Below are positions 34,836-49,288 of a stretch of DNA of 64,000 nucleotides, one piece after another. The first letter of the stretch is position 1. Each line of letters opens with the position of its first letter. The translations under genes were made by a program, and so were the position numbers. Below the pieces are notes generated by a model. The model was not told where the DNA came from. It did not search any database and was given only the letters and a program-made list of their open reading frames with translations. This DNA is from Cryomorphaceae bacterium (GTDB lineage: Bacteria; Bacteroidota; Bacteroidia; Flavobacteriales_D; Crocinitomicaceae), in the NCBI GenBank assembly GCA_027483605.1, contig JAIXUE010000042.1, positions 1 through 64,000 on the forward strand, given 5' to 3'.

Positions 34836-36404
34836 TTAGAAGCCCGGATTCTGTTGTAAGTTCGGGTTAAGTACAATATCAGAAGTTGGAATAGGATATA
34901 GGTTGTATTTATCATCTACTCCAGCACCAGCTACATCTCCGCCCTTAAATGGCCATACATAGTCAGATCCTGTAAAGAGACCAAAGCGGATGAGGTCAGT
35001 ACGGCGCGTACACTCCCAATTGAGTTCACGTGCGCGTTCGTCAATGAAATCGTTGAGCACCAAAGAAGTGTAATTATGTGTCGCGTTTCCGTAAGCACGT
35101 TCACGGATATAATTCATATAGGTAAGTGCCGTGGCTTGATCTCCAGTTCTGAACTTCGCCTCAGCATACATCAAGTATACATCCCCTAAACGGAACATCG
35201 GAAAATCAACATCTGTATGGGCAGTAGTTGCATTATTTGATCCATTCAAACCATCTTTGGTTTTATTCTTGTATTTAGGATTTGCATACCCTTGTGTAAA
35301 GGTGCTCATGGAAGTAATGTCAATTTGTTGGCCCGCGGTATAGAACATCCAACGAGAATCTTCTGTAGAATCTGTAAACTTCTCAATAAATGGACGTGTT
35401 GCACGATTGCCAGCCCATTTGCCATTTACACCATAGTCTGCCGCAACCATTGATCCGCCCAATGCAGAACAAATCATGAAGGTGGTACCACCCCATGTCT
35501 GCGCATAGAGCCCGTCGTAAACAATCGGGAAGATAATTTCTGGTGAGGTATGATTATCTGCTAAAAACACCTCTTGATAGACATCATCTAACTGGAAGTT
35601 GTTTGTATTAATGATTTTCTCACAATAAGTTGCACAATCGGAATAGCGAGCAGTACCTGTATAAACCTCAGCATTCAAGTACATTTTTGCCATGAGCGCG
35701 TGTGCGGCACTGCGAGAAGCACGGCCATATGCAACTGTTGCTGCTGGCGTGAGCTCATCTTCGATTGCTTTGATTTCAGACTCGATGTAGTCAAACAAGT
35801 CGGCGCGCATGATTTGCTCCGGGTTGAAAGCTCCAACGCGGTCTTCTTCTGTTACAAAAGGAACATTGCCAAATAAATCCATAGCGTGGTAGTAAGCTAA
35901 GGCACGCAAGAAACGAGCTTCATTGCGCATCATGACAATATTTGAAACCTGAGCAGCTGTAAAGCCACGCTCATTGAGTTTTTCATCGCGAGCCTGCCAA
36001 ATAAACTCATTACAAAGTGTAATTTGGTAAAATATGCGGTAATACATTCCTTTTACCCAAACGTTGTCTGCATTCCATTGGGTCTTATTGAGGTCGGGAA
36101 TACCTGGGTCATTCCAGCCACAAATTGCTTCGTCGGTAGGGAGCTCTTGCATGTTCCACAATACGCGCACATAAGCAGAGAAGCCCTCGTCGATTCCGGC
36201 GATATCTGCTTGCCCTGCAGGACCTTGGTTGCCCGTCATGGACATGCCTGAGTACAATTTTGCGAGAACTTTAATATAGTTATTGGCATCGCTGTAGACA
36301 GCCTCTGCATTGAGGCCATATTTAGGCGATTGATTTAAGTTTTTGCCACAGGCTCCTAATAAAAGTGCGCTGGCAATAAAGGTATAAGCTGCTAATCTTT
36401 TCAT
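34836..36404 (-). CDS. SusD/RagB-family glycan-binding lipoprotein
   Basis: A 522-residue outer-membrane surface lipoprotein that lids the SusC channel and binds oligosaccharides. The signal peptide ends in LLLGACGKN (Cys19 lipidated). The SusD family start NLNQSPKYGLNAEAVYSDANNYIKVLAKLYSGM, the TPR-like RNEARFLRALAYYHAMDLFGNVPF (near residues 150-175) and the C-terminal DERARELNWECTRRTDLIRFG with LYPIPTSDIVLNPNLQQNPGF are all diagnostic. It follows susC by 10 bases. Location beside amylases suggests starch or another alpha-glucan as substrate. Confidence 0.95.
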   Translation of the reverse strand: MKRLAAYTFIASALLLGACGKNLNQSPKYGLNAEAVYSDANNYIKVLAKLYSGMSMTGNQGPAGQADIAGIDEGFSAYVRVLWNMQELPTDEAICGWNDPGIPDLNKTQWNADNVWVKGMYYRIFYQITLCNEFIWQARDEKLNERGFTAAQVSNIVMMRNEARFLRALAYYHAMDLFGNVPFVTEEDRVGAFNPEQIMRADLFDYIESEIKAIEDELTPAATVAYGRASRSAAHALMAKMYLNAEVYTGTARYSDCATYCEKIINTNNFQLDDVYQEVFLADNHTSPEIIFPIVYDGLYAQTWGGTTFMICSALGGSMVAADYGVNGKWAGNRATRPFIEKFTDSTEDSRWMFYTAGQQIDITSMSTFTQGYANPKYKNKTKDGLNGSNNATTAHTDVDFPMFRLGDVYLMYAEAKFRTGDQATALTYMNYIRERAYGNATHNYTSLVLNDFIDERARELNWECTRRTDLIRFGLFTGSDYVWPFKGGDVAGAGVDDKYNLYPIPTSDIVLNPNLQQNPGF

Positions 36405-36414
36405 GGTTCAAAAA

Positions 36415-39400
36415 TTAGAAATCAAATGTTAAGTTCACTGAATATACGCGCGGACGTGGGTAGAAATTGTTGTCGATCCCGCCTCCAATCTCAGGGTCTT
36501 GACCTGAATATTTGGTAATGACAAAAGCATTTTGCACTACGAAACTGGCATTGAGCCCCACTTTTTCTTTGGCAAAACCAAGCTTTCCAAAGTTGTAGCC
36601 TACATTGATGAAGTCCATGCGCAAGAAGTTGGCTTTCTCTAGATAGTGATCACTCATTAGCTGGTTGGCCGTAACACGTTGCACTTCGTCTTGGTAATAC
36701 AAAGAGCTGATGTTATTGAGGTATTTTTTGGTACCGTCAATGGTTTGGAAAACAGCACTATTGGAGTGGATGTTATTGTAGATAGTAGCACCCAATTCTG
36801 CACGAGCAGAGAAACCAGCATACCATTTTTTATATTGGAAATTTAGGGCTGTTCCAAAGAACATTAAAGGCGCTGCCTGACCAGAGTAATAGCGGTCTTT
36901 CACGTTGATGATGCCGTCTCCATTACGGTCTACAAATGCGTTGGTATCTTTCCATTTGTCTGCAGCGGTCACTTGACCGTCGCCGTTCATATCGATTTCA
37001 GCCAAAGAACCAACTTCGATCACACGACCTTGTGAGTCATACTGCTGTTCTAAAACAAAGAAAGAAAAAGTTGGGTAACCAATTTGGTGTGCTTGAATGG
37101 TGTTACCAATACCGCCACCAATACCACCAATCAAGACACCTGGTGAGGTTGTATCTACAACTTGAGATAACTTAACTACCGTGTTGATGTTGTACGTACC
37201 GTTGATGCTCCAGTCTAGTCTCATGTCCTTTTTTGCGATCAAGCCCGTATTGATTGAAACCTCAACCCCGCGGTTTTGCATGGCACCAACGTTTGTCAAG
37301 ATTTCATTCGTAAAGTTGGTACCTGCCGGAACAGGAACAGTGGCGAGGAGGTCGCGGGTATCTTTTTGGTAAACATCTACACTTCCTGAAAAACGGTCGT
37401 TCTTGAAACCGAAATCTAAACCAAGGTTATAAGAAGTGGTGGTTTCCCAACGAAGGCTCGCATCAAAACCTGCCGGACGCAATACTTGGTAGTACTGACC
37501 GCCGAAGGCATACTGAGCTGTTGTTGCACCTTCAAAATAGTTGCCAATGTAAGCGTAATCTCCGATGCCGTCTTGCTGACCTGTAATACCCCAACCTGCA
37601 CGAAGCTTTAACATATTGATGGTTTTGCTATTCTTCAAAAATGCTTCTTCGGAAATGAGCCATGCCGCAGACGCTGCCGGGAACACACCCCAACGAGTCT
37701 CTGGGCTGAAGCGAGACGAACCATCACGACGAACAGAAACGTTCACTACATATTTACCAGCATAATTGTAAATAGCGCGTCCATAATATGACATGAGTAC
37801 ATTGCGCGTGTAGAAAGGAAATGCTGTCGCAGCTTCAATAATACTGTCTTGCGCTTCGTTGAGCGCTGGATTGTTTGGGCTATAGGTATCCCAATCTTGG
37901 TAAGAGTAACCGGCAACAACTTCTAAGGTTTGTTTTTCCCACTTAGCACCAGAGTTGTAGCTCAAGTAAGATTCAAAAAGTTTGTTGGTTTTAGTAGTGC
38001 GGTAATTTGTGTAGCGCCCTTGGGTGTAAAAACCTGAGGCAGATGAAGCAGGGGTAATGGTAAAACCAGTTCCTTCTGAGAAGTCACCACCTGCGTTTAC
38101 CGTTGCTTTCAATGCAGGCAACGAAGGTAAGTTGTAAGTGAGTTTGGCGTTTGCAATGGCACGGTTCACTTTACTTTGGTCTGTAGATTGTTCAATGAGA
38201 CCCAGTGGATTACGAGCAGAAAGCACGTTTGGTTTATTGTTATCAATCCATTCGAAATAACCACCATAAGCCTCCGATCCAGAATAAATTGGTTGGGTTG
38301 GGTCAAAAAATGCAGCACCCAGCGCTCCGCGGTTGGCAAAGAAAGAAGCCGTTTGAACGTATTTCATGTTGGCCTCTACTTGAAGTGTTTTATCTAGAAA
38401 ACTTGGATTCATGTTCAAGCTCACTGAAGTACGTGCAAATTGATCTCTTTTAAGGATCCCGTTATCGATGCGGTTTCCGACAGATAAGCGATAAGGTAAA
38501 TTTTTGATACCACCGGTGATCGACACGTTGTTGTCGGTAACGACCGCTGAGCGGAATACTTGTCTTTGCCAATCTGTAGAGGAGTCGCCAAGTAGTGCTT
38601 TTTGAGCATTGGTACCTTTTGCATTGACAAGGTTGCGAAGGGAGTCAGCACTGAGGACATCAAAGTACTTTGCAATTGTAGAAACTGACGTTTTGGAGTC
38701 CAGGACAACCTTAACCGCATTTGAAGATGAACCGCGTTTGGTAGTAATGAGGATGACGCCATTTGCTGCTCTTGAACCGTAGATTGCAGTTGCAGATGCG
38801 TCTTTGAGTACCACAAATGAAGCGATATCATTAGGGTTGATCAAAGAAAGGGGATTAGCTGCACCTGCGATACCACCGTTATCTAGTGGGACGCCATCGA
38901 CAACAATTAAGGGGTCGTTTGAGGCATTTATTGAAGTTCCACCGCGCAAGCGAAGTGTAGAACCAGATCCGGGAGCACCGTCGTTGGAAGTAACTTTTAA
39001 ACCAGCAACCTTACCCATAACGAGTTGCTCCGGCGAAGCAAGTGAACCTTGAACAAAATTCTTCTCATTGATAACTGTTGCTGAACCCGTGAGGTCTTTG
39101 GTGCGTTGTGTACCATAGCCAATCACAACGACATCACTTACATCTTGTGTTTTTGAAGCAAACTGAAAATCGTTGGTCACCATTTGGTTGGCCACCACTG
39201 TGACTTGATCAGTTTGCGGGCTGAAACCCATAAACTTGTAAATGACATTGTAGGTTCCGGCTTTGAGGCCTGTGATCTCGTAGTATCCTTTATCGTCGGA
39301 TACGGCGCCCTTGCCCTGACCATCCACCAATACCGAAGCATTGAATAGCGGAACACCAGCTGCGTCTGTGATGATTCCTCGAATACCGGTCTGGGCTATT

Positions 39401-39465
39401 GCCACCACCGAAAGTCCAAAAAACATCAAGAAGGCAAAAAAACTTGTAGTAGTTTGTTTTTGCAT
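36415..39465 (-). CDS. SusC/RagA-family TonB-dependent transporter
   Basis: A 1016-residue outer-membrane barrel that imports oligosaccharides with energy from TonB. Order of domains: signal peptide (residues 1-24), CarboxypepD-reg-like domain (GIRGIITDAAGVPLFNASVLV, 27-100), the SusC box VVVIGYGTQRTKDLTGS near 112-128, the plug with LRLRGGTSINASNDPLIVVDGVPLD near 170-194 and DASATAIYGSRAANGVILITTKRG near 220-243, then the 22-strand barrel ending in NLTFDF with terminal Phe. It heads a susC-susD unit with its own promoter carrying two palindromes. Confidence 0.96.
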   Translation of the reverse strand: MQKQTTTSFFAFLMFFGLSVVAIAQTGIRGIITDAAGVPLFNASVLVDGQGKGAVSDDKGYYEITGLKAGTYNVIYKFMGFSPQTDQVTVVANQMVTNDFQFASKTQDVSDVVVIGYGTQRTKDLTGSATVINEKNFVQGSLASPEQLVMGKVAGLKVTSNDGAPGSGSTLRLRGGTSINASNDPLIVVDGVPLDNGGIAGAANPLSLINPNDIASFVVLKDASATAIYGSRAANGVILITTKRGSSSNAVKVVLDSKTSVSTIAKYFDVLSADSLRNLVNAKGTNAQKALLGDSSTDWQRQVFRSAVVTDNNVSITGGIKNLPYRLSVGNRIDNGILKRDQFARTSVSLNMNPSFLDKTLQVEANMKYVQTASFFANRGALGAAFFDPTQPIYSGSEAYGGYFEWIDNNKPNVLSARNPLGLIEQSTDQSKVNRAIANAKLTYNLPSLPALKATVNAGGDFSEGTGFTITPASSASGFYTQGRYTNYRTTKTNKLFESYLSYNSGAKWEKQTLEVVAGYSYQDWDTYSPNNPALNEAQDSIIEAATAFPFYTRNVLMSYYGRAIYNYAGKYVVNVSVRRDGSSRFSPETRWGVFPAASAAWLISEEAFLKNSKTINMLKLRAGWGITGQQDGIGDYAYIGNYFEGATTAQYAFGGQYYQVLRPAGFDASLRWETTTSYNLGLDFGFKNDRFSGSVDVYQKDTRDLLATVPVPAGTNFTNEILTNVGAMQNRGVEVSINTGLIAKKDMRLDWSINGTYNINTVVKLSQVVDTTSPGVLIGGIGGGIGNTIQAHQIGYPTFSFFVLEQQYDSQGRVIEVGSLAEIDMNGDGQVTAADKWKDTNAFVDRNGDGIINVKDRYYSGQAAPLMFFGTALNFQYKKWYAGFSARAELGATIYNNIHSNSAVFQTIDGTKKYLNNISSLYYQDEVQRVTANQLMSDHYLEKANFLRMDFINVGYNFGKLGFAKEKVGLNASFVVQNAFVITKYSGQDPEIGGGIDNNFYPRPRVYSVNLTFDF

Positions 39466-39487: not shown

Positions 39488-39501
39488 ACAGATTAATCTG
39501 T
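39488..39501 (-). repeat. perfect 14-bp palindrome at the susC transcription start
   Basis: ACAGATTAATCTGT is its own reverse complement. It begins at the base following the susC -7 element in the minus-strand direction, so it should cover the transcription start, a typical operator position. Confidence 0.6.
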
Positions 39502-39531
39502 CAAATATATTTTATTTTTTGTTAATGTCAA
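39502..39531 (-). promoter_or_regulatory. promoter of susC-susD
   Basis: On the minus strand TTG (39531-39529), a 19-base spacer and TATATTTG (39509-39502) make a strong Bacteroidota promoter, with a leader of about 30 bases to the susC ATG. The -33 TTG lies inside the 13-bp palindrome TGTCA-N3-TGACA. Confidence 0.8.
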
Positions 39532-39538
39532 GTTGACA
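39526..39538. promoter_or_regulatory. 13-bp operator-like palindrome overlapping the susC -33 element
   Basis: TGTCAAGTTGACA has 6-base arms (TGTCAA / TTGACA) around one base. The same TGTCA-N3-TGACA form recurs at 49243-49255 next to the promoter of the SusE/F-like gene of the same locus. This suggests a binding site for a shared regulator. Confidence 0.6.
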
Positions 39539-39552
39539 CAAAGAAAAGTTTT

Positions 39553-42012
39553 TCACCATTTCAACTCTAAAAGGAAAGGATTTTGAGCAATTCGCAATTT
39601 TGGAGACTTGCTCAAACGCAAAGTACCCGATTTCTTGTCGAAATCAAACTTGACCTTCGTTCCATTTAAATAAACTTCCTTTGGAGCGCTTGGCGCATGG
39701 ATCAAAAGTGAAAAATGAAAGTACTTTTCCCAAATCTTTTCTCCAATTTCTGCTTTAAACTGAAGTGTACATACTTCATTTTGTGTTGAGGCCTGACACC
39801 ATAATTTTTTAGACAAGCCCTTCGCCTCTGCATCAAAGGAGGCACCGTCATCTTCGTACCAAATAAACTCATTCAAGGAGTCGTTGGACTTAGGATCAAG
39901 ATATACATGCAAGACTACTGCTGTATCTCTGTATTGCTCCGTGCTTTGGACCACTGGCGTCATTGGAACAAAAGAGCCCGCTTTTACAAAAACCGGAATT
40001 TCTCGGAGTGTCTTTGTGGTTTCAACCATTTGGAATTCGGCTGAGCTGCCTTTTGACGCAGCTGAATAGACCAATTTTCCCGTATGAAAGTCAAACCATG
40101 ATGAACTGGTAGGGAGCTTTGTTTTGTATTTTGATGCTTTAGTTGCATCCATTGAATCTGTAATGGCGTGCACCAAAAATGCGCTCCCCCACATATACGT
40201 TTCACTTTCAGCAAAAGACCATTTCGCTCGAGGAAACTCCATGAAAATTGGTCTCATCAAGGGTATTCCCTTTTGATGATTTTCATAGGCTATGCTATAG
40301 TTATAAGGTAAGAGCTGGTAGCGCAATTCGATTGCAGATTTAGCCAACGCTTTCGTTTTTGCATCTTTGAAAACTGCTTCGCTTGCTACTTCTTGTTGGG
40401 CATGCGGCCTAAATACAGGCTGAAAGACGCCATATTGCAACCAACGCACATACAACTCTGGATCGTTATTCGCTCCGGCAAAACCACCTAAATCGGAGTG
40501 CATGTAGGCCATTCCTTGCAGACCCATTTGCATGGATATTTCCATTTGTGGTTTGAGGCCGCCCCAAGTGCGGTTGACGTCTCCTGACCAAGGCACCATG
40601 CCATATTTTTGAGAGCCCGAATAACCAGCGCGCATCAAAATGAATGGGCGTTCTGTCGAAAAATCTTTGCGGTAGCCTTCGTATACCAACCTTGCCCAGT
40701 CGTGGCCATAAATGTTGTGTACTTCATCAGCCCATTTATCGCCGTGCTTTAATTTGGTTGGATGTACTTCTGGTTCGCCTAAATCGCCCCAAAAACCCGC
40801 AACACCATAACCATGCAGATTCTTGTAGATATCCCAAAACCACGTTCTTGCTGCTGGTTTGTATAAGTCAATCAAGCCCGTGTTGCCAAAATAAAAATCG
40901 TAGCGGTAAGAATTACCAATAGAATCAGTGCCGAGCAATTTGAAGCGATCGGCTTCGGACCATTTTTTTGAGGTTGTTAGTACGAATGGTTCGGTGATCA
41001 AAATGGTCTTGACATTCTCACTTCTAAAATCAGCAATCATTTGTTCTGCATTGGGAAACGAATCCTTGAAGAATTCAAAATTGCCGAGCGTTCCTTGAAT
41101 GTCTTTACCAAACCAATAGAGGTCAAAAACAATCGCATCCAACGGAATTTGTTCTTTTTTAAATGCCGCAACAACCGCTTTCGCTTCCGCTTCAGAATGA
41201 TAGCCAAAGCGGCTTGCAAAATTTCCGAGTGTCCAGCGAGCGGGAAGCGGCTGTCTGCCTAGCAAGGATGTTAGGGAATTGGTGAGGTCTTTCCAATCGT
41301 CTGAAAAAACAACCTGATAACGCAAAGGCCCTCCAATGACTTCATAGGTAAGTTTGTTTTGCTTTTTTGAATCGAGGTCGAGCCAACCAATTTGTGGATT
41401 GTCAAAATGAAGCGCGTAGCCCTTATCTGAAAGTACAATTGGCATCGTGAAATTCATGAGCTCTGAATGGGTCTCGTAACCGTAGTGTGCACGGTTGTAC
41501 AATTGCAAGCGATAGCCACGGCGATTCATGCCCAATACGCGCGCACCTGCACCCATCAGTTGTTCCTCAGTACTTAAATCAAATTCAATTTTTGAGGTTT
41601 GGTCAAAATAATAGCCTTGCGCCTCGGATACTTCCGTGGTTTTGTAGAAATAAGAAATGTCAAACGGCTTTGTAATGATCTTAACACCGACAGCACCACT
41701 TTTAAGAATATACATTTTAGATTTACCTTCTTTTAAGGCTACGGTTTCTATTTCTAGAAGTTCCCAAGGATTGGCTTGCGCTTGCAAAAGCACCGCATGA
41801 GAACTATCGATTTTTACAGCGCTTCCTTGCGGAAAAAAAGTGGTTTGAATGATCTGCTCAGCAAGCAAAGCCACAACATATTTTCCATCAGAAACCTGAA
41901 TATCTACGCCTTGTTCGGTGAGTTCGATTTTTACAAACTGGCGGTTCAAATTTTGGGCAGTAACGCTATTCCGCCCAAATAAAACGACAAATAAAACTAA
42001 AGTGAAACGCAT
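39553..42012 (-). CDS. GH31 alpha-glucosidase, secreted
   Basis: An 819-residue glycoside hydrolase of family 31 that removes alpha-linked glucose from oligosaccharide ends. A signal peptide (residues 1-20, ending SVTAQ) precedes an N-terminal beta-domain (galactose-mutarotase-like), the (beta/alpha)8 barrel and C-terminal beta-domains with a DUF5110-like end. The nucleophile is Asp410 in VAGFWGDLGEPE and the acid/base is Asp478 in WSGDVNRTWGG; FDLYWFGKDIQG near 296-307 is also typical. No sorting domain is seen, so it is probably periplasmic. The ATG at 42012 lies one base after the stop of the upstream amylase. Confidence 0.94.
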   Translation of the reverse strand: MRFTLVLFVVLFGRNSVTAQNLNRQFVKIELTEQGVDIQVSDGKYVVALLAEQIIQTTFFPQGSAVKIDSSHAVLLQAQANPWELLEIETVALKEGKSKMYILKSGAVGVKIITKPFDISYFYKTTEVSEAQGYYFDQTSKIEFDLSTEEQLMGAGARVLGMNRRGYRLQLYNRAHYGYETHSELMNFTMPIVLSDKGYALHFDNPQIGWLDLDSKKQNKLTYEVIGGPLRYQVVFSDDWKDLTNSLTSLLGRQPLPARWTLGNFASRFGYHSEAEAKAVVAAFKKEQIPLDAIVFDLYWFGKDIQGTLGNFEFFKDSFPNAEQMIADFRSENVKTILITEPFVLTTSKKWSEADRFKLLGTDSIGNSYRYDFYFGNTGLIDLYKPAARTWFWDIYKNLHGYGVAGFWGDLGEPEVHPTKLKHGDKWADEVHNIYGHDWARLVYEGYRKDFSTERPFILMRAGYSGSQKYGMVPWSGDVNRTWGGLKPQMEISMQMGLQGMAYMHSDLGGFAGANNDPELYVRWLQYGVFQPVFRPHAQQEVASEAVFKDAKTKALAKSAIELRYQLLPYNYSIAYENHQKGIPLMRPIFMEFPRAKWSFAESETYMWGSAFLVHAITDSMDATKASKYKTKLPTSSSWFDFHTGKLVYSAASKGSSAEFQMVETTKTLREIPVFVKAGSFVPMTPVVQSTEQYRDTAVVLHVYLDPKSNDSLNEFIWYEDDGASFDAEAKGLSKKLWCQASTQNEVCTLQFKAEIGEKIWEKYFHFSLLIHAPSAPKEVYLNGTKVKFDFDKKSGTLRLSKSPKLRIAQNPFLLELKW

Positions 42013-42013
42013 A

Positions 42014-43909
42014 TCAATGATGTAGTTGAATGATGTAGGCTGTTTTTGCCGGAATACTCCCGTTTGGCACTTCAAAATCAAAGGTTTGATTGGTGAGTAC
42101 ATCTTTGCCTTTGTCATAGCCTCTGAAACCTTCTGCAAAGCGAGACCATGAAAACGTTTGTTCCTTGGTTGAGTTATTGATGATCACCATAATGACCTCA
42201 GCAGGTTGCGCCATTTCTTTTACGGGCTCTAGGTAGCGGAAATACACGTACACATTGTTTTGCGGCACATACTGCAACAGCTTACCTTGGTGAATGACCT
42301 TTTGGCCTTTTCTCCAATTCAATAAAGATTTGGTAAACTGAAAATATGCTTCTTCTTCTGGGGTTCTTCCGGTTTGATACGCCCTACATTTGGTGTCTTC
42401 ATTGCTGCAAAATGCCGTGTGCTGATCTGCAGCCCAGCCGCCAGGAAAGTCTCTGCGGATATCGGCATCGCCTACTGCTTTACTGCCTTTCATACCGATT
42501 TCAGAACCGTAGTAAATTTGTGGAATTCCTCTGGTGGTGGCAATTAAAGTCAAGGCCATTTTGTAAGCTGCAATATCTGGATAAGATTCATTGAATCTTT
42601 GGGTGTCATGGTTTTCCATGAATACCAATAAATTTTGTGGATTGGCATATAGGTAGTCATTGGCAAAGTTTTCATAAAAGCGAACCATTCCTTGGTCCCA
42701 ACCTTGCTCCTGCTCCTTCCATGCCTGCATCATGGCGTCGTGTAAGGTGAAATCCATGACAGAAGGCATGTGGCTATTGTAACCTTGGAGTGCGCCAATT
42801 GGGCTATCTTTTTGCCAAAACGCCATTTGCGCTTGGTCGTGCATCCAAACTTCTCCTACGATATTCAAATTGGGATATTCGGTCATGATGGCTTTTGTCC
42901 ATTTTGCAGCTGCATCTTTGTCGTTGTAAGAGTAGGTATCCACGCGCAAGCCGTCTAATTGCGCATATTCAATCCACCAAATGGTATTTTGAATCAAGTA
43001 AGTCAGCAACAACGGATTTTGCTGGTTCATGTCCGGCATGGTGGTGTCAAACCAACCATCGGCAGATGCTTTTTGATCTGTTTTGGACGCATAAGGATCG
43101 AATTGGGTGCTGGTGCGGTAACTCGATCGTGTGAACTGATCAAACTGATGGATCCAGGTGGCGGTAGGCAAATCTTGGATCATCCAGTGCTTGCTCGACC
43201 AGTGGTTAGGGACTTCGTCTTTGATGACTTTCAATCCTTGTCGATGTGCCTCCAAAACCATTTCCTTGTACCAAGAATTGTTGCCATAACGCGGGTCAAT
43301 TTTATACAAATCGGATTGCGCATAGCCGTGATAAGAATAGGTTGGTTCGTTGTCCTCGAGCATGGGCGTAGTCCAGATGGTAGTGGCGCCTAATTCTTTG
43401 ATGTAACTCAGACGTTGAATAATCCCCATGATGTCACCTCCATGCCGACCACTCGGATTCGAACGATCAGTTGCTTCTTTGGTGTCAGGATGCTTGTCTA
43501 AGCCCTCGTTGGCATTGGCAAAACGGTCTGGCATTAACAAATACATCACATCTGAACTATTGAAACTCTGACGGTACTTGCTGTTTTGAATGCGCTCTTC
43601 GAGCTTGAATTCATGGGTAGCAAGTACTTTCTTTTTATCCATCAATCTGATTGGATAAATACCTGCAACTTTATCTTTGGTCTCCAGCGTGACAAAAATA
43701 TAATTCGGGTTTTCGGTGCGGATTTCTTCGAGAATTTGAAGGCCCACAACCTCCACTTTGTACTTTGCGATGTCTTGTCCGTGCAGCAATACTTGTACTT
43801 GATGGTGCTCCATTCCTACCCACCAGTTTGCAGGTTCTACATGTTTGAATACTTGTGAGTAAGCTAAGGAAGTGAAAAGAAGACAAAAGGCGAGGTTAAT
43901 CCATTTCAT
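42014..43909 (-). CDS. GH13 alpha-amylase / neopullulanase-type enzyme, secreted
   Basis: A 631-residue GH13 enzyme with a signal peptide (MKWINLAFCLLFTSLAYSQ), an N-terminal beta-sandwich (residues 20-110), the TIM barrel and a C-terminal beta-domain. Catalytic residues are Asp324 (GLRVDTYSYND), Glu353 (NIVGEVW) and Asp435 (FMENHDTQRF). The layout fits the cyclomaltodextrinase/neopullulanase group, to which Bacteroides SusA belongs, acting on malto-oligosaccharides or pullulan in the periplasm. The ATG at 43909 overlaps the end of the upstream CotH-type gene by 14 bases; a TTG nine codons earlier is possible but unneeded. Confidence 0.93.
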   Translation of the reverse strand: MKWINLAFCLLFTSLAYSQVFKHVEPANWWVGMEHHQVQVLLHGQDIAKYKVEVVGLQILEEIRTENPNYIFVTLETKDKVAGIYPIRLMDKKKVLATHEFKLEERIQNSKYRQSFNSSDVMYLLMPDRFANANEGLDKHPDTKEATDRSNPSGRHGGDIMGIIQRLSYIKELGATTIWTTPMLEDNEPTYSYHGYAQSDLYKIDPRYGNNSWYKEMVLEAHRQGLKVIKDEVPNHWSSKHWMIQDLPTATWIHQFDQFTRSSYRTSTQFDPYASKTDQKASADGWFDTTMPDMNQQNPLLLTYLIQNTIWWIEYAQLDGLRVDTYSYNDKDAAAKWTKAIMTEYPNLNIVGEVWMHDQAQMAFWQKDSPIGALQGYNSHMPSVMDFTLHDAMMQAWKEQEQGWDQGMVRFYENFANDYLYANPQNLLVFMENHDTQRFNESYPDIAAYKMALTLIATTRGIPQIYYGSEIGMKGSKAVGDADIRRDFPGGWAADQHTAFCSNEDTKCRAYQTGRTPEEEAYFQFTKSLLNWRKGQKVIHQGKLLQYVPQNNVYVYFRYLEPVKEMAQPAEVIMVIINNSTKEQTFSWSRFAEGFRGYDKGKDVLTNQTFDFEVPNGSIPAKTAYIIQLHH

Positions 43910-45320
43910 AAACACGTTGTTGAGTTCCGTTTTCAAAGTTCAAAATTTTAATACAATTTTTAGTACTTGGGTCAATTTCTCTACCCAAAATATCGGTCAC
44001 GAAAAGCAATTTGCCCTTCGTTGCAGCATTTTCATCCAAACCAATTGTACAAGGATTTGGCAAGGCCTGATAAGCACTTAATTGCGAAAGTGCGCTTGTT
44101 TTACGGTTTTGTAAATAGGGAATGATGCCACTCTTGACATGTGCGCCCCAAGTTACTTGCAGTGCATTGATAAAATCTTGATCTGAAAATCCATAGTCTA
44201 AACCTTTGTAGTCGTCATCCAATGCAGCTGGTGTGATCAATGCTTGTTGGGCCTCGAGTTGTGTTTGGAGGTTACTCACGTTCCAAATATTGGAAAGGAT
44301 GTCATTGAGGTGAAAAGTGAAGCGGTCCCTGAAGTAAGGAACTGCTAAGAGTTTGGTATACAACGGTCTGCTTTGATTGCCCGGAGACCACGTGTAAATG
44401 TTGCGCAACGCCCAATTGATATTGAACCAATCTATGCCGAATGTATTATCTAAATCATAAGAAATGTAAACGATTTTTCCGTCGCTCTCCCTTTGATATA
44501 AGTAGTAATTATTTTTATTGTAGGCATAGCCATCCCACTGGCCCATGAGAATTTCTAAGGCAATATTGCGCAAAAACAAATCGACATCAAAGACATCTTG
44601 GATGGCACAAACAAAATTACTAGCAGGTGTATTGTTCAGCACGTCAATGAAATGAATGAGTGCACTGAAATCTGCACTATCCTTATTCGTTTTCAGTTCA
44701 TAAATACTGTTGTAGCTGCTTGGGTTTGAACCCCACCAGGTCAAATCGGCTCCGTAAGCACATTTCCATAAATTACCATTGGCCTGTCCCGGAAAACGCA
44801 AATCGAGAAATTCGTCATCGAGGTGCTCTACATTAATGTACAAGCCTTTATAGGCATTGTTGATATAGAGTTTGATATAACTCGTGCGCGCCGCAGGAAG
44901 TGCTGCAGACCTTAGTAATTGCTGTGCAAGATATGATCGCATGATCGATACATCGTTGTGTTCGCCATTCAGATTTAATTCTTCAAGACCCTGAAATTTT
45001 TGGGTTGGAACAAAACGATTGAAATCGACCTTAAAAGATTTTTTTTGCGAGGCCAAGGAAGTGTTTCCTCTCGCTCTAAAACCAATGCTATCGATTGTAA
45101 CATTCAAAGAAGCGCTCTGATAGGAAACCGTTGCCATAAACTCATGGCCACTGTATAAACTATCTCCAAGAAGTAAATCCAGCGAGTCAGGATGAATATC
45201 CACGTACACACTCGCGAGCTCATTTTGTAGAAAAGCTAAGTTGTAAGGTGGTTGAGGAATTTGGGCAAAAACCGATTGAAGTCCAAGAAAAATGAATAAG
45301 ATAAACCGGATATGCTGCAT
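43896..45320 (-). CDS. secreted CotH-type kinase-like protein within the starch locus
   Basis: A 474-residue exported protein with a signal peptide (MQHIRFILFIFLGLQSVFAQ) and a CotH domain. Motifs are IGFRARGNTSLASQKKSFKVDF (residues 79-100), ELNLNGEHNDVSIMRSYLAQQLL (114-136), YINNAYKGLYINVEHLDDEFL (152-172), QWDGYAYNKNNYYLY (261-275) and the metal-binding YDLDNTFG (288-295; Asp289 and Asp291). CotH homologues are atypical secretory protein kinases. The tail (TDILGREIDPSTKN then NGTQQRVYEMD) resembles a shortened, unusual sorting-domain-like end. It lies between two GH13 genes, 10 bases after one and overlapping the next by 14. The kinase role is inference. Confidence 0.87.
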   Translation of the reverse strand: MQHIRFILFIFLGLQSVFAQIPQPPYNLAFLQNELASVYVDIHPDSLDLLLGDSLYSGHEFMATVSYQSASLNVTIDSIGFRARGNTSLASQKKSFKVDFNRFVPTQKFQGLEELNLNGEHNDVSIMRSYLAQQLLRSAALPAARTSYIKLYINNAYKGLYINVEHLDDEFLDLRFPGQANGNLWKCAYGADLTWWGSNPSSYNSIYELKTNKDSADFSALIHFIDVLNNTPASNFVCAIQDVFDVDLFLRNIALEILMGQWDGYAYNKNNYYLYQRESDGKIVYISYDLDNTFGIDWFNINWALRNIYTWSPGNQSRPLYTKLLAVPYFRDRFTFHLNDILSNIWNVSNLQTQLEAQQALITPAALDDDYKGLDYGFSDQDFINALQVTWGAHVKSGIIPYLQNRKTSALSQLSAYQALPNPCTIGLDENAATKGKLLFVTDILGREIDPSTKNCIKILNFENGTQQRVYEMD

Positions 45321-45330
45321 CCAAATTGCT

Positions 45331-48117
45331 TTAATCAACTTTTACAAACCCTTCATTAGCCATGGCTGTTCCAACTTTGATCAAAAAGTGATAGTTGCCT
45401 GACGGCAGATCCTTTACATCAAATGGGATTTCATTGTCACCACTTGCGGAGGTGCCTTTTCTTTCCATGACGACCTGACCAGCTTCATTCAATAACAGTA
45501 CCTTATATGGTTCAATTGCTAGCGCCTGGAAACGCAGTGTAGCCAATTGCGAAGAAGGATTGGGAAATACCTTCAACTCAAAAGAGGAGTTCAAGACTTC
45601 TTCAATCGAAACAGGTGCTTCAGTAATTTCTGGTTGAGCTAATTTAACATCCGTGTAAATACGGTATTCACCTGCAATAAGGCTAATTGGAGCAAGCGCA
45701 TTAGTGACATTGATGCTATCACCAGTAAAATATTCATACCACCAACCGGCATGCTGAAAAGCAGGAATGACACTTTGTGTAGTCACGGCAAAATTCGCCA
45801 TTGAAACACCATTCATGCTGGCGTGGCTCATGGTCATTCTTTTGGCTGCTCCTGTTAGGTTGTATTGAAAGTTGAGCGAGCGAAAAGTTTCGTAATTATT
45901 TCGCAAGGCAAGCGTTGCCGCGTAGACATCATAGAGTTGTCGGCGTCGCGCTTGGGTGTAGTAATTCCACAAAATAGGTTTATTACAAACACGGCAAGGG
46001 TTATCTATAGAAATGTCGTAACCCAATTCCTGGAACTGCCACAACATTTTAGGGCCGGGTTGTGTCAATAAGATGACGGCGATACCTTGTGCACGACCTA
46101 AAGCTGTATAAAGATTGCGCGCGTTGTGTGCAGGATTGGTATTATTTCCATAAGTAAGCGCTTCAAACATCGTGCGCTCTTCATCATGGCTTTCTGCGTA
46201 AGAAATCAAATGCGGGACGGACCAACCTCTGTTACTATGAATTCCTGAGCTGATATTACTTGAATTGGTAAAGCCCATAAGCGCTTGTTGATACCCGTGG
46301 GTCACGTTACCCCAAAGCATCATGCCATGGTCTGCCAATTGTTCTTCTTCGGCGTTGTCGCACCAGTGTTCTAAAATAATATACGCATCGGATTTATAAG
46401 TCCAGATTTCGTCGACCATTCTCTTGAGCAAGTTGATGCGCTCCATGCTGTAACCATTTCCGTTATTGATAAAACCCTTTGTATAATCAAAACGAAAACC
46501 GTCAATATTGTAGGTCTCGATCCAATAGCGATTGATTTGATCGATATATTGCTGAGTGGCCAAGCGGGTGTGGTCATAATCATAACCCCAGCAATAAGGT
46601 TCATGCGGGCAAATGGCATTGAACCAAGGGCTATTCGCTGCGGGGCGTGCATTTGCGGCGTCCCAATACATACGGACCATTGGGCTCTGACCGAATGCAT
46701 GATTGAGTACCATGTCTACAATCACTGCAATACCACGGCCGTGGCAAGAATCTACAAACTCCTTGAATTTTTCTGGCGTACCATAATACTTATCAAGAGC
46801 CATGTGAAATGACGGGTTGTAGCCCCAACTCTCGTTGTTTTCAAACTCTCCAGGAGGCATGAGTTCAATTGCATTGATTCCGAGTTTAGTCAGGTAGTCT
46901 AGGGTATCAATAAGCGTTTGGTAATTTCTTTTGGCGACAAAATCGCGAACCAATAGCTCGTAAATGACTAAATCCTTCTTTTGCGTGGCGGTGAAGTTGG
47001 TGTTGGTCCAAACATAAGGAGTGGCAGCCGTTTGTAAAACCGTTACAAAACCTGTTGTTTGTCCGATAGGGTATGGATGCGGATTTGGATAAGTTTGAGC
47101 ATTGATGCTGTTGTCATTGTTCGGGTCCAAAATGAGTGTACTCATTGGATCTGCCAAGCGCAAATTGCCATCAATGAGGTATTGATAACCGTATTTTTGG
47201 CCGGGTGTTAGCCCGGTGATTTCTAGCCACCAAGTTTGGTTGTTGGTAGATAGATGCATATGATAGTTGGTCGTTGGCGTCCAGTTGTTGAAGTCGCCAA
47301 TGACGTAAATATGTTCTTTTTGAGGGGCGAATAACTGCAATACAACAGTTGTGTCGTTGATGTAATTGATGCCATTTTGTAAATTGGCATAAGTGGGGTC
47401 TTGCGGAACCACTAGCGGGTTAACCGTAAAATAAGTTGAGTCAATGACTTGTGTGGTGCCGTTGTCGGCAATGAATTCAAGTAAGTGCGTGCCAGCTTGT
47501 GTAGCCGTTAAAGTATAGTTGAGCTGCGTAGCATTGGGTAGTGTCTGAAGTACAATTCCATCCTGTTTGAGTGTTAGGCTTGCATTCTGATTGGCTGCCG
47601 CTTCCACGTGCAGTTGCTCATTTAAATCCAAAATAGCACCCGAGTTCGGATGAAAAAATTGGGCTAGCAAACCTGCATTGACCGGATAAACATCGTAATA
47701 GATATCGCTGCCATCTGCCGAACGGCCAACAATTGTTCCGGCTGCATTTCTAAATACAAAAGCAAACTTTAAAACATTTGTTCCTGCAGGAAAGCCATAA
47801 TATTGATCGATATCGATGGTGATAGTGTGTTTGTTGTTGCCAATATTGGTCATGGCAACTTCGGGGTCTACGGTTCCCCAATTGCCTTGCACAAATTGCC
47901 AATTGGTTGGCGATGTACTTGCAGAGGTAATGAGTCCGGCGTGGGCATAGATCTGGTTTTGACCTACTAACGCAGCATTTCCTTGTGTTGCATCATAGGT
48001 GATGGTTACTACATCGTTTACCGTGGGAAATGCAGGATTCACCTCTAAGATTTGTGCATTCACAAACCCATCGAGGAGCATCAAAACAATAGATAAAAGA
48101 AGCTGCTTTTTCATCAC
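45331..48117 (-). CDS. GH13 alpha-amylase with N-terminal modules, CBM48 and T9SS sorting domain
   Basis: A 928-residue secreted enzyme. After the signal peptide (residues 1-22) come a beta-sandwich possibly of the starch-binding CBM25/26 type (about 25-145), a second beta-sandwich (150-235), a CBM48-like module (250-345, with IYVIGDFNNWTP), and the GH13 barrel (380-760). Catalytic residues are Asp544 (IDGFRFDYTKGF), Glu583 (YIILEHWCD) and Asp645 (YAESHDEERTM). The C-terminal 75 residues (FELKVFPNPSSQLATLRF ... LPSGNYHFLIKVG) are a type A T9SS sorting domain. It is therefore the likely surface amylase of the locus, comparable in role to SusG but exported by T9SS rather than lipid-anchored. 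Confidence 0.94.
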   Translation of the reverse strand: MMKKQLLLSIVLMLLDGFVNAQILEVNPAFPTVNDVVTITYDATQGNAALVGQNQIYAHAGLITSASTSPTNWQFVQGNWGTVDPEVAMTNIGNNKHTITIDIDQYYGFPAGTNVLKFAFVFRNAAGTIVGRSADGSDIYYDVYPVNAGLLAQFFHPNSGAILDLNEQLHVEAAANQNASLTLKQDGIVLQTLPNATQLNYTLTATQAGTHLLEFIADNGTTQVIDSTYFTVNPLVVPQDPTYANLQNGINYINDTTVVLQLFAPQKEHIYVIGDFNNWTPTTNYHMHLSTNNQTWWLEITGLTPGQKYGYQYLIDGNLRLADPMSTLILDPNNDNSINAQTYPNPHPYPIGQTTGFVTVLQTAATPYVWTNTNFTATQKKDLVIYELLVRDFVAKRNYQTLIDTLDYLTKLGINAIELMPPGEFENNESWGYNPSFHMALDKYYGTPEKFKEFVDSCHGRGIAVIVDMVLNHAFGQSPMVRMYWDAANARPAANSPWFNAICPHEPYCWGYDYDHTRLATQQYIDQINRYWIETYNIDGFRFDYTKGFINNGNGYSMERINLLKRMVDEIWTYKSDAYIILEHWCDNAEEEQLADHGMMLWGNVTHGYQQALMGFTNSSNISSGIHSNRGWSVPHLISYAESHDEERTMFEALTYGNNTNPAHNARNLYTALGRAQGIAVILLTQPGPKMLWQFQELGYDISIDNPCRVCNKPILWNYYTQARRRQLYDVYAATLALRNNYETFRSLNFQYNLTGAAKRMTMSHASMNGVSMANFAVTTQSVIPAFQHAGWWYEYFTGDSINVTNALAPISLIAGEYRIYTDVKLAQPEITEAPVSIEEVLNSSFELKVFPNPSSQLATLRFQALAIEPYKVLLLNEAGQVVMERKGTSASGDNEIPFDVKDLPSGNYHFLIKVGTAMANEGFVKVD

Positions 48118-48202: not shown

Positions 48203-49210
48203 TTATTGCTTGATCAATTTACCAGTAGCAACTTTGTCACCTGCAACAACGTTGTAGATATAAGAACCAGCCTGCAAAGCAGTTGTATTCATTTCTACAG
48301 TTGTAGTAGCAGAAGTAGCGACAGTTTGTGTAGCAACTACTTTACCAGTAAGGTCGAACAATGTAACGGTTGCAGTTGCAGCGTTGTTTGCGTCGAATGT
48401 GAAGTTCACAACATCAGATGCAGGGTTCGGCGCTACAGTAAGGTTAGCAATTGCGTTTTCAGCAACAGAAACACCACATGCTGTACAAGCATCCCAAACG
48501 TAACATACAGTACCAGGAAGCAAAGTGTACGTACGGTTGATGTTACCAGCACCGTCATCTACACCACAAGAGTCAACTGCAATTGTGTTAGCAGCATCTG
48601 TACCTTCGTTTGAACCCCAGTCGCCGTTTACGAACTTGTAAAATTGAGTAGCACCCAAAGAAGCAACAGGATAAGATACAGTAATTGCCCAAATGTTGTT
48701 GCCTTCGTCTGTCATTGCAGAGTTTGCATCACCAGGAGACCAGTTTGCAACCGGACCAGCTGCTACAGTAGCACCGTTGTCTGTGAAGTTACCTCCAACA
48801 CGGATACCATTTGCAGCCAACGTAGCGCCACCAGCAAGGTAGTTAGTGATGTCCACTTTGTAAGTTACGTCAAAGTTAGTTTGAAAGCTATACATACCTG
48901 TTGTGCGGTTAAAAATAACCATGTAAGTACCAGCAGGAACAGGAATGTTAGGGCCTCCTTGAACACCAACTCCAGTAGGAAAGTCAACAGCACCCCAGTT
49001 GATAGCCCAATCGTCGTCTTGACGGAATTTAGCTTCACCAGCCGTACAGGTAACAATTGCGCCATACATTTCACCGTCTACAGTGACCATGTCAACATCA
49101 GCAGACCAACCAGATGGCAAAGCCGAACCGATGATACCTACCGCAGGGAATTGTGCGAAGGCAGAAGCTCCTAAAACGAGAGCCGTTAAGAGTGTAAAAA
49201 TTTTCTTCAT
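48203..49210 (-). CDS. SusE/SusF-like starch-binding protein with T9SS sorting domain
   Basis: A 335-residue exported protein. The signal peptide is MKKIFTLLTALVLGASAFAQ with no lipobox Cys. Residues 21-115 (LPSGWSADVDM, GEAKFRQDDDWAINWGAVDFPTGVG, NIPVPAGTYMVIFNRTTGMYSF) match SusE/SusF-type binding modules. Residues 116-245 form a second beta-module with aromatic residues (WSPGDANSAM, FYKFVNGDWGSNEG) and paired cysteines (VCYVWDACTACG). Residues 255-335 (LTVAPNPASDVVNFTFDA ... LQAGSYIYNVVAG) are a type A T9SS sorting domain. It has its own promoter and terminator and probably serves as an abundant surface glucan binder. Confidence 0.87.
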   Translation of the reverse strand: MKKIFTLLTALVLGASAFAQFPAVGIIGSALPSGWSADVDMVTVDGEMYGAIVTCTAGEAKFRQDDDWAINWGAVDFPTGVGVQGGPNIPVPAGTYMVIFNRTTGMYSFQTNFDVTYKVDITNYLAGGATLAANGIRVGGNFTDNGATVAAGPVANWSPGDANSAMTDEGNNIWAITVSYPVASLGATQFYKFVNGDWGSNEGTDAANTIAVDSCGVDDGAGNINRTYTLLPGTVCYVWDACTACGVSVAENAIANLTVAPNPASDVVNFTFDANNAATATVTLFDLTGKVVATQTVATSATTTVEMNTTALQAGSYIYNVVAGDKVATGKLIKQ

Positions 49211-49242
49211 ACTTAATTAATTAATAGGTTAATAATACTTAG

Positions 49243-49255
49243 TGTCAGATTGACA
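49243..49255. promoter_or_regulatory. 13-bp operator-like palindrome at the SusE/F-like gene start
   Basis: TGTCAGATTGACA (TGTCA-N3-TGACA) lies 4 bases downstream of the -7 element in the minus-strand sense, over the expected transcription start. It shares both half-sites and spacing with the palindrome overlapping the susC -33 element. Confidence 0.6.
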
Positions 49256-49259
49256 AGTT

Positions 49260-49288
49260 CAAAAATATAAAAATATTTTTTAATCCAA
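49260..49288 (-). promoter_or_regulatory. promoter of the SusE/F-like gene
   Basis: On the minus strand TTG (49288-49286), an 18-base spacer and TATTTTTG (49267-49260) make a good Bacteroidota promoter. The leader to the ATG at 49210 is about 45 bases. Confidence 0.7.

Follow-up and report, generated by a model that had tools for sequence, protein, structure and literature searches.

How is a starch utilization locus controlled when it has no regulator gene of its own? We addressed this question, which such loci leave, in a Cryomorphaceae genome, and can now name a candidate protein, its probable operator, and predicted target promoters. Within the window (the whole stretch of 64,000 nucleotides that was analyzed), a run of seven genes on the minus strand, from 49210 to 34836, makes up an alpha-glucan utilization locus (Table 1). 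A preliminary description of the susC promoter had reported two different palindromes, interpreted them as binding sites for two factors, and stated that no regulator gene sits in the locus. The last statement holds for the locus in this genome but not in two relatives (G005 and G060), where a candidate regulator gene directly adjoins susD of the orthologous locus. The part of the locus between 43896 and 49210 includes a CotH-kinase-like gene, and the SusE/F-like and GH13 proteins encoded there carry type IX secretion tails.

Table 1. Features of the alpha-glucan locus and of its two operator-bearing promoters (positions in the window)
Feature	Position	Strand	Basis or remark
SusE/F-like protein, type IX secretion tail, first gene of locus	48203..49210	-	PF18962 above cut-off; PF16411 (SusF_SusE) 23.2 bits, below cut-off of 27.5
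GH13/CBM48 protein, type IX secretion tail	45331..48117	-	PF00128, PF02922, PF18962
CotH-kinase-like gene	43896..45338	-	PF08757
GH13 cyclomaltodextrinase-like gene	42014..43936	-	PF00128, PF09087, PF10438
GH31 glucosidase gene	39553..42138	-	PF01055
susC, TonB-linked outer-membrane importer	36415..39465	-	TIGR04056, 644.8 bits
susD-like gene	34836..36404	-	PF07980
Operator of susC promoter, GTGTCAACTTGACAT, over -33 element	39525..39539	-	About -42 to -28; conserved arms, variable middle
-7 box of susC promoter, TATATTTG	39502..39509	-	TAnnTTTG kept, 36/36
14-bp palindrome over +1, ACAGATTAATCTGT; probably chance, inside partly conserved leader	39488..39501	-	
Second operator, TTGTCAATCTGACAC, core about +1 to +13 of first gene's promoter	49242..49256	-	Exact in relatives
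-7 box of first gene's promoter, TATTTTTG	49260..49267	-	Sequence; kept in relatives

Layout of the susC promoter

The susC promoter lies in the interval that separates the GH31 gene from susC, whose ATG is at 39465. Read 5' to 3' on the minus strand, it consists of TGTCAACTTGACA (39538-39526), TTAACAAAAAATAAAA, TATATTTG (39509-39502), and ACAGATTAATCTGT (39501-39488). The TTG and TATATTTG are separated by a spacer of 19 bases, and the gap from the end of the 15-bp form of the palindrome (GTGTCAACTTGACAT) to TATATTTG is 15 A/T-rich bases. The accessible text of PMC9723704 places the -7 box at -12 to -5, which puts the susC +1 at about 39497, with the 13-mer at approximately -41 to -29 and the 14-mer at approximately -4 to +10. 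The promoter and both palindromes are located as first described, with the coordinates, the TTG, and the 19-base spacer all correct on the minus strand.

Palindromes of these sizes occur in the window at the number expected by chance. We counted 6 perfect 14-bp palindromes, against a mean of 6.5 in order-1 Markov sequences; 20 palindromes of the 6-1-6 type, against 21.5; and 85 of the 5-3-5 type, against 82.1. Symmetry by itself is therefore no proof of function. The first palindrome is raised above chance by its conservation and its recurrence.

The palindrome over the -33 element is conserved

SusC orthologues are present in the genus and beyond, and the nearest named loci are mostly those of Crocinitomicaceae or Flavobacteriales metagenome-assembled genomes (MAGs). 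We compared 36 distinct full susC upstream regions from SusC proteins of 62 to 100% identity. Duplicates among the upstream regions were discarded, only loci with an N-terminal match were used, and four upstream regions were excluded, two because they were cut short (L046 and L038) and two that belong to SusC proteins of 25 to 29% identity (L072 and L074). The preliminary description had suggested aligning this promoter in relatives, and the alignment confirmed the first palindrome as a conserved element: TGTCA-N3-TGACA is exact in 33 of the 36 promoters, and TGTCA-N3-TGAC is present in all 36. The middle three bases vary (ACT, ATT, AAT, TTT, TAA, or TTA). Among the 21 promoters below 75% identity, the GTGTCA and TGAC columns each reach 2.00 bits and the middle base has 0.42 bits. 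TAnnTTTG follows the operator core at a distance of 13 to 18 nt in 36/36 promoters.

Of the 36 promoters, 31 retain the TTG of the -33 element, and the other five have lost it but still have the operator. Since the TTG is kept in just these 31, the constraint falls on the palindrome arms and not on the sigma element alone. Persistence of the site where the TTG has been lost makes it very likely, on this comparative evidence, that a factor binds over the -33 element, as the preliminary description had held. We considered whether the palindrome is merely the by-product of a consensus-like TTGACA element, which forms part of it, in a window where palindromes of this size are no more frequent than chance. 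There is next to no likelihood of this, because the mirror arm TGTCA is invariant in all 36 promoters and the TTG is not, and because the motif is found elsewhere too, at +1 of a second promoter and close to other genes.

The susC promoters share one further feature. A T and a C at 39543-39544 (minus strand), which precede the operator core by 5 to 6 nt, are the same in 36/36 promoters, and the operator does not account for them.

The palindrome over +1 looks like a chance feature

In the preliminary description, a factor different from the one at -33 was assigned to the palindrome over +1. In this genome that palindrome is indeed perfect, and all 15 close relatives retain its right half, ATTAATCTGT; however, 11 of these have only a half-kept palindrome, and the left arm changes without matching changes in the right arm. 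The perfect form of ACAGATTAATCTGT is confined to 4 of the 36 susC promoters, all from SusC proteins of at least 93% identity, and the palindrome is absent from all 21 of the more distant promoters. A search of the bacterium's own genome returned a single exact copy and no one-mismatch copy. Together with the chance number of such palindromes in the window, these results make an arrangement of two different factors, acting at -33 and +1 respectively, very improbable. The conservation pattern marks the first site, and not the second, as an operator; judged by its sequence, the second looks like a chance feature.

The operator motif recurs near starch and central carbon genes

A second TGTCA-N3-TGACA is found within the starch locus itself, at 49243-49255, 4 nt past the -7 box of the first gene and at approximately +1. 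This operator of the SusE/F-like gene is exact, and 3 to 4 nt past the -7 box, in 16/16 distinct upstream regions, a count that excludes three tblastn pieces (internal segments from L058 and L350 and a distant L350 homologue with a degenerate site).

The genome search that had also been suggested for the first motif gave 8 exact copies of TGTCA-N3-TGACA in the bacterium's own genome and 0 of the reversed control. Across 61 genomes of the genus, there were 195 exact copies, many of them within genes, against 41 for the control. Allowing one mismatch gave 13 places in the own genome, of which those inside genes were set aside after their context was read. The form GTGTMANNNTKACA occurs at 13 distinct places (16 rows) in the own genome, against 1 for the reversed control. 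Nine of the 13 are at gene starts, namely those of susC, the SusE/F-like gene, zwf, pdhA, pdhB, eda, gdhA, the pair formed by the candidate regulator and a divergent kinase-like gene, and a TPR gene; the other four are inside genes. NCBIfam models identified zwf (541.2 bits; cut-off, 400.6), pdhA (446; cut-off, 393.85), pdhB (512.8; cut-off, 454), eda (TIGR01182, 202.8; cut-off, 156.05), and gdhA (781; cut-off, 536), the gdhA copy scanned being that of a relative.

The sites at gdhA, eda, the TPR gene, and the SusE/F-like gene recur in close relatives. Among 14 distant genus members with both the regulator and zwf, 13 have a zwf site with at least 10/12 consensus bases; two of the matched sites, those of G005 and G051, are over 130 nt away from the start, and the one in G005 belongs to a neighboring SusE/F-like gene. 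The gdhA site is found in only 3/15 analyzable distant members with a regulator orthologue, with the unreadable loci L320 and L324 left out. Both the gdhA and the pdhA sites are upstream of likely promoters. We rejected the GTGTCACCTTGACA matches (L281, L298, and the best zwf match of G052) as operators, since their sequence context makes them look like tRNA genes.

Two further sets of sites, each conserved across part of the genus, do not fit a sugar regulon. One is a conserved TGTCA-N3-TGACA upstream of the gene for a TPR protein that starts with MFDDDEEE (L107, L146, L150, L164, and L194). The other is found in more distant genus members (L155, L167, L174, L176, and L303), where the motif is upstream of a clpB-type chaperone gene that is divergent from another gene.

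A Nudix-winged-helix protein is the candidate regulator

One of the own-genome sites is between a gene for a Nudix and winged-helix protein (G000:C22:1191-1943), which is unlinked to the starch locus and carries the motif in its own promoter, and a divergent kinase-like gene (PF01869, 24.9 bits, below the cut-off of 31.5) that is followed by an amylase-like gene. The protein has a Nudix-like N-terminal domain (PF00293, 29.4 bits; cut-off, 21.1) and a C-terminal winged helix that matches both PF21906 (NrtR_WHD, 89.4 bits; cut-off, 27) and PF19368 (AraR_C, 45.6 bits; cut-off, 23.8). Its nearest solved structure is BtAraR (E value, 4.4e-48). The helix DKRNFRR keeps the BtAraR contact triad Lys179-Arg180-Asn181; at the remaining contact positions, the candidate has Arg for Lys184 and His-Lys aligned with the wing residues Lys204-Arg205.

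An orthologue of the regulator is present in 48 of the 61 genus genomes, one of them partial, and GTGTCA-N5-ACAC lies between it and the divergent kinase in 30/30 genus loci read. Where it does not adjoin susD, as it does in G005 and G060, its neighbors are zwf-pgl, GAPDH, pfkA, kinase, and GH13 amylase genes.

The same genomes encode a paralogue, TF2, a second Nudix-winged-helix regulator with the helix DKANFRK (G000:C9:20347-20970, locus L245, and 11 relatives, L246-L256). In most loci read, TF2 adjoins a sugar permease and another susCD-like pair. Twenty rows were selected from the listing of orthologues. We compared site occurrence with helix sequence, leaving out the row TF1_L208 (wrong reading frame). 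A strong site within 260 nt was found at 14/18 of the DKRN loci and 0/3 of the DNRN loci among 21 further orthologue loci, and a GTGT-type site within 260 nt at 0/12 of the TF2 loci; the loci are related, so these counts are not independent. The pattern amounts to a specificity contrast within one family, in which the helix DKRN goes with GTGT sites, and DKAN (TF2) and DNRN go without them.

Regulator presence, set against that of zwf sites, discriminates poorly as a test of the binder. We found no orthologue in 13/61 genus genomes. Ten of these 13 have zwf, and six of the ten keep the zwf site (G001, G018, G020, G031, G033, and G043); a seventh orthologue-lacking genome, G052, was not counted because its match was to a tRNA-like stretch. 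Most of the six are incomplete MAGs, for which an assembly gap would be a simple explanation. G020 is rated 100% complete, and it has sites at zwf, susC, the SusE/F-like gene, eda, and gdhA. The near-complete genomes G038 and G044, also without an orthologue, have no strong zwf site. Since presence and absence leave the identity of the binder undecided, the case is carried by the promoter site, the helix, and synteny.

The genomes with sites and no orthologue found, G020 above all, raise the alternative that another protein, such as TF2 or an unrelated regulator, binds the operator and simply counts the Nudix gene among its targets. We consider this unlikely, given the match of both the GTGT-N7-ACAC frame and the contact triad to BtAraR, the site at the regulator gene in 30/30 genus loci, the synteny with susCD in two relatives, and the lack of a site at all 12 TF2 loci.

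In three genomes (G012, G041, and G054), the regulator, TF2, and zwf are all missing, which suggests that sugar oxidation and its regulators were lost together.

Proposed mode of control

We propose, with a probability of roughly 0.8, that 39526-39538 is the operator (a 15-bp GTGTCA-N3-TGACAC element with a GTGT-N7-ACAC frame) of the unlinked NrtR/AraR-family regulator, which would be a likely repressor with a central-carbon regulon. The sites, their conservation and gene neighbors, and the family of the protein are observed; we infer that this protein is the binder, that it represses, and what its ligand is. One regulator of a starch-to-central-carbon regulon is likely, instead of two factors.

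By analogy with AraR and NrtR, the regulator is probably a repressor. At susC it would cover the -33 element, and at the SusE/F-like gene and its own divergent kinase/amylase operon it would cover approximately +1. With the operator over -33 or +1, RNA polymerase would be blocked; binding of an alpha-glucan breakdown product, either a sugar or a sugar phosphate, to the Nudix domain would release the block. Operators near zwf, eda, pdhA, pdhB, and gdhA would place starch import within the central-carbon regulon. If this is true, polymer uptake at the outer membrane would be tied to central metabolism via one site.

The regulator might instead activate susC, replacing the -33 contact of sigma from its position at -41 to -29, and repress only where its site covers +1. 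The five susC promoters that have the site and lack the TTG would fit such a dual regulator, as would the gdhA and pdhA sites, whose position upstream of likely promoters makes a dual role as activator and repressor possible. Activation at susC nevertheless appears rather unlikely: the TTG is kept in most of the promoters, the distance from site to -7 box, at 13 to 18 nt, is loose for a contact-dependent activator, and the accessible portion of PMC4666351 describes AraR and NrtR as repressors.

Repression at susC remains our preferred reading, and we extend it only tentatively, as a wider scheme that is somewhat doubtful as a whole. In many Flavobacteriales, this Nudix regulator, and not Crp, LacI, RpiR, or SusR, might be the central regulator of carbon flux. 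It might sense a glucose-derived metabolite and control a path from the outer-membrane starch importer to glutamate dehydrogenase by way of glucose-6-phosphate oxidation, KDPG aldolase, and pyruvate dehydrogenase, with repression at -33 or +1 and activation from upstream.

Relation to known regulators

LacI, Crp, GntR-FadR, and RpiR regulators were weighed by motif geometry only and were dropped when a Nudix gene turned up that has the motif in its promoter. HexR of the Gammaproteobacteria, an RpiR-family protein, controls zwf, eda, and further genes of central carbon metabolism; its likeness to the candidate, a Nudix protein, is one of role only. Cur/BT4338, a Crp-like protein of Bacteroides, likewise has a global sugar regulon and a palindromic site, for which the accessible portions of PMC6989115 and PMC3878776 print the consensus wwwTATGTTnTAnAACATAwww. 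We rejected it as the binder because this printed consensus (TATGTTnTAnAACATA) differs from the susC element in both half-site and spacing. SusR, the maltose regulator of the Bacteroides thetaiotaomicron sus locus, also controls starch genes; its predicted sites, in the part of PMC3878776 available, are direct repeats whose centers are 67 or 77 bp from each other. This published direct-repeat motif differs from the 15-bp palindrome at susC, and SusR was also rejected.

NrtR of NAD metabolism (SoNrtR, 3gz5) has the same domain pair as the candidate (PDB match E value, 1.5e-19). We rejected an NAD-metabolism identity because the candidate's score with the NCBIfam equivalog NF050029 (ADP-ribose-responsive repressor) is 123.7 bits, below the cut-off of 400. 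No NAD genes were noticed beside the sites among those read.

The closest counterpart is BtAraR (BT0354), which the accessible text of PMC4666351 presents as the NrtR-family L-arabinose regulator of B. thetaiotaomicron; the DNA in its crystal holds GTGTTACTTTTACAC, and the contacts define GTGT. The two proteins have in common the Nudix domain and winged helix, the GTGT-N7-ACAC operator frame, and the Lys-Arg-Asn triad. They differ in that they are 38 to 43% identical over the aligned part and part of the contact residues are changed. The targets of BtAraR are arabinose genes, whereas those predicted here from sites are starch and central carbon genes. We did not file the candidate as an AraR because it does not cluster with arabinose utilization genes, its neighbors being kinase, GH13 amylase, zwf-pgl, GAPDH, pfkA, and susCD genes. 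The family and the operator frame are already known; what would be new is the predicted range of targets, which extends from starch import to central carbon. Among the open-access papers that our searches listed, none has a title or abstract describing control of starch or central carbon genes by a Nudix/NrtR protein in this group.

The BtAraR regulon, as far as the same portion of PMC4666351 describes it, also includes SusC/SusD genes and has semipalindromic sites that are at times in tandem. The operator of the SusE/F-like gene is doubled in one relative (L198, G008:C23, locus positions 1501-1530), with two copies of TGTCAAGTTGACA 17 nt apart, an arrangement that resembles the tandem AraR sites described in Bacteroides.
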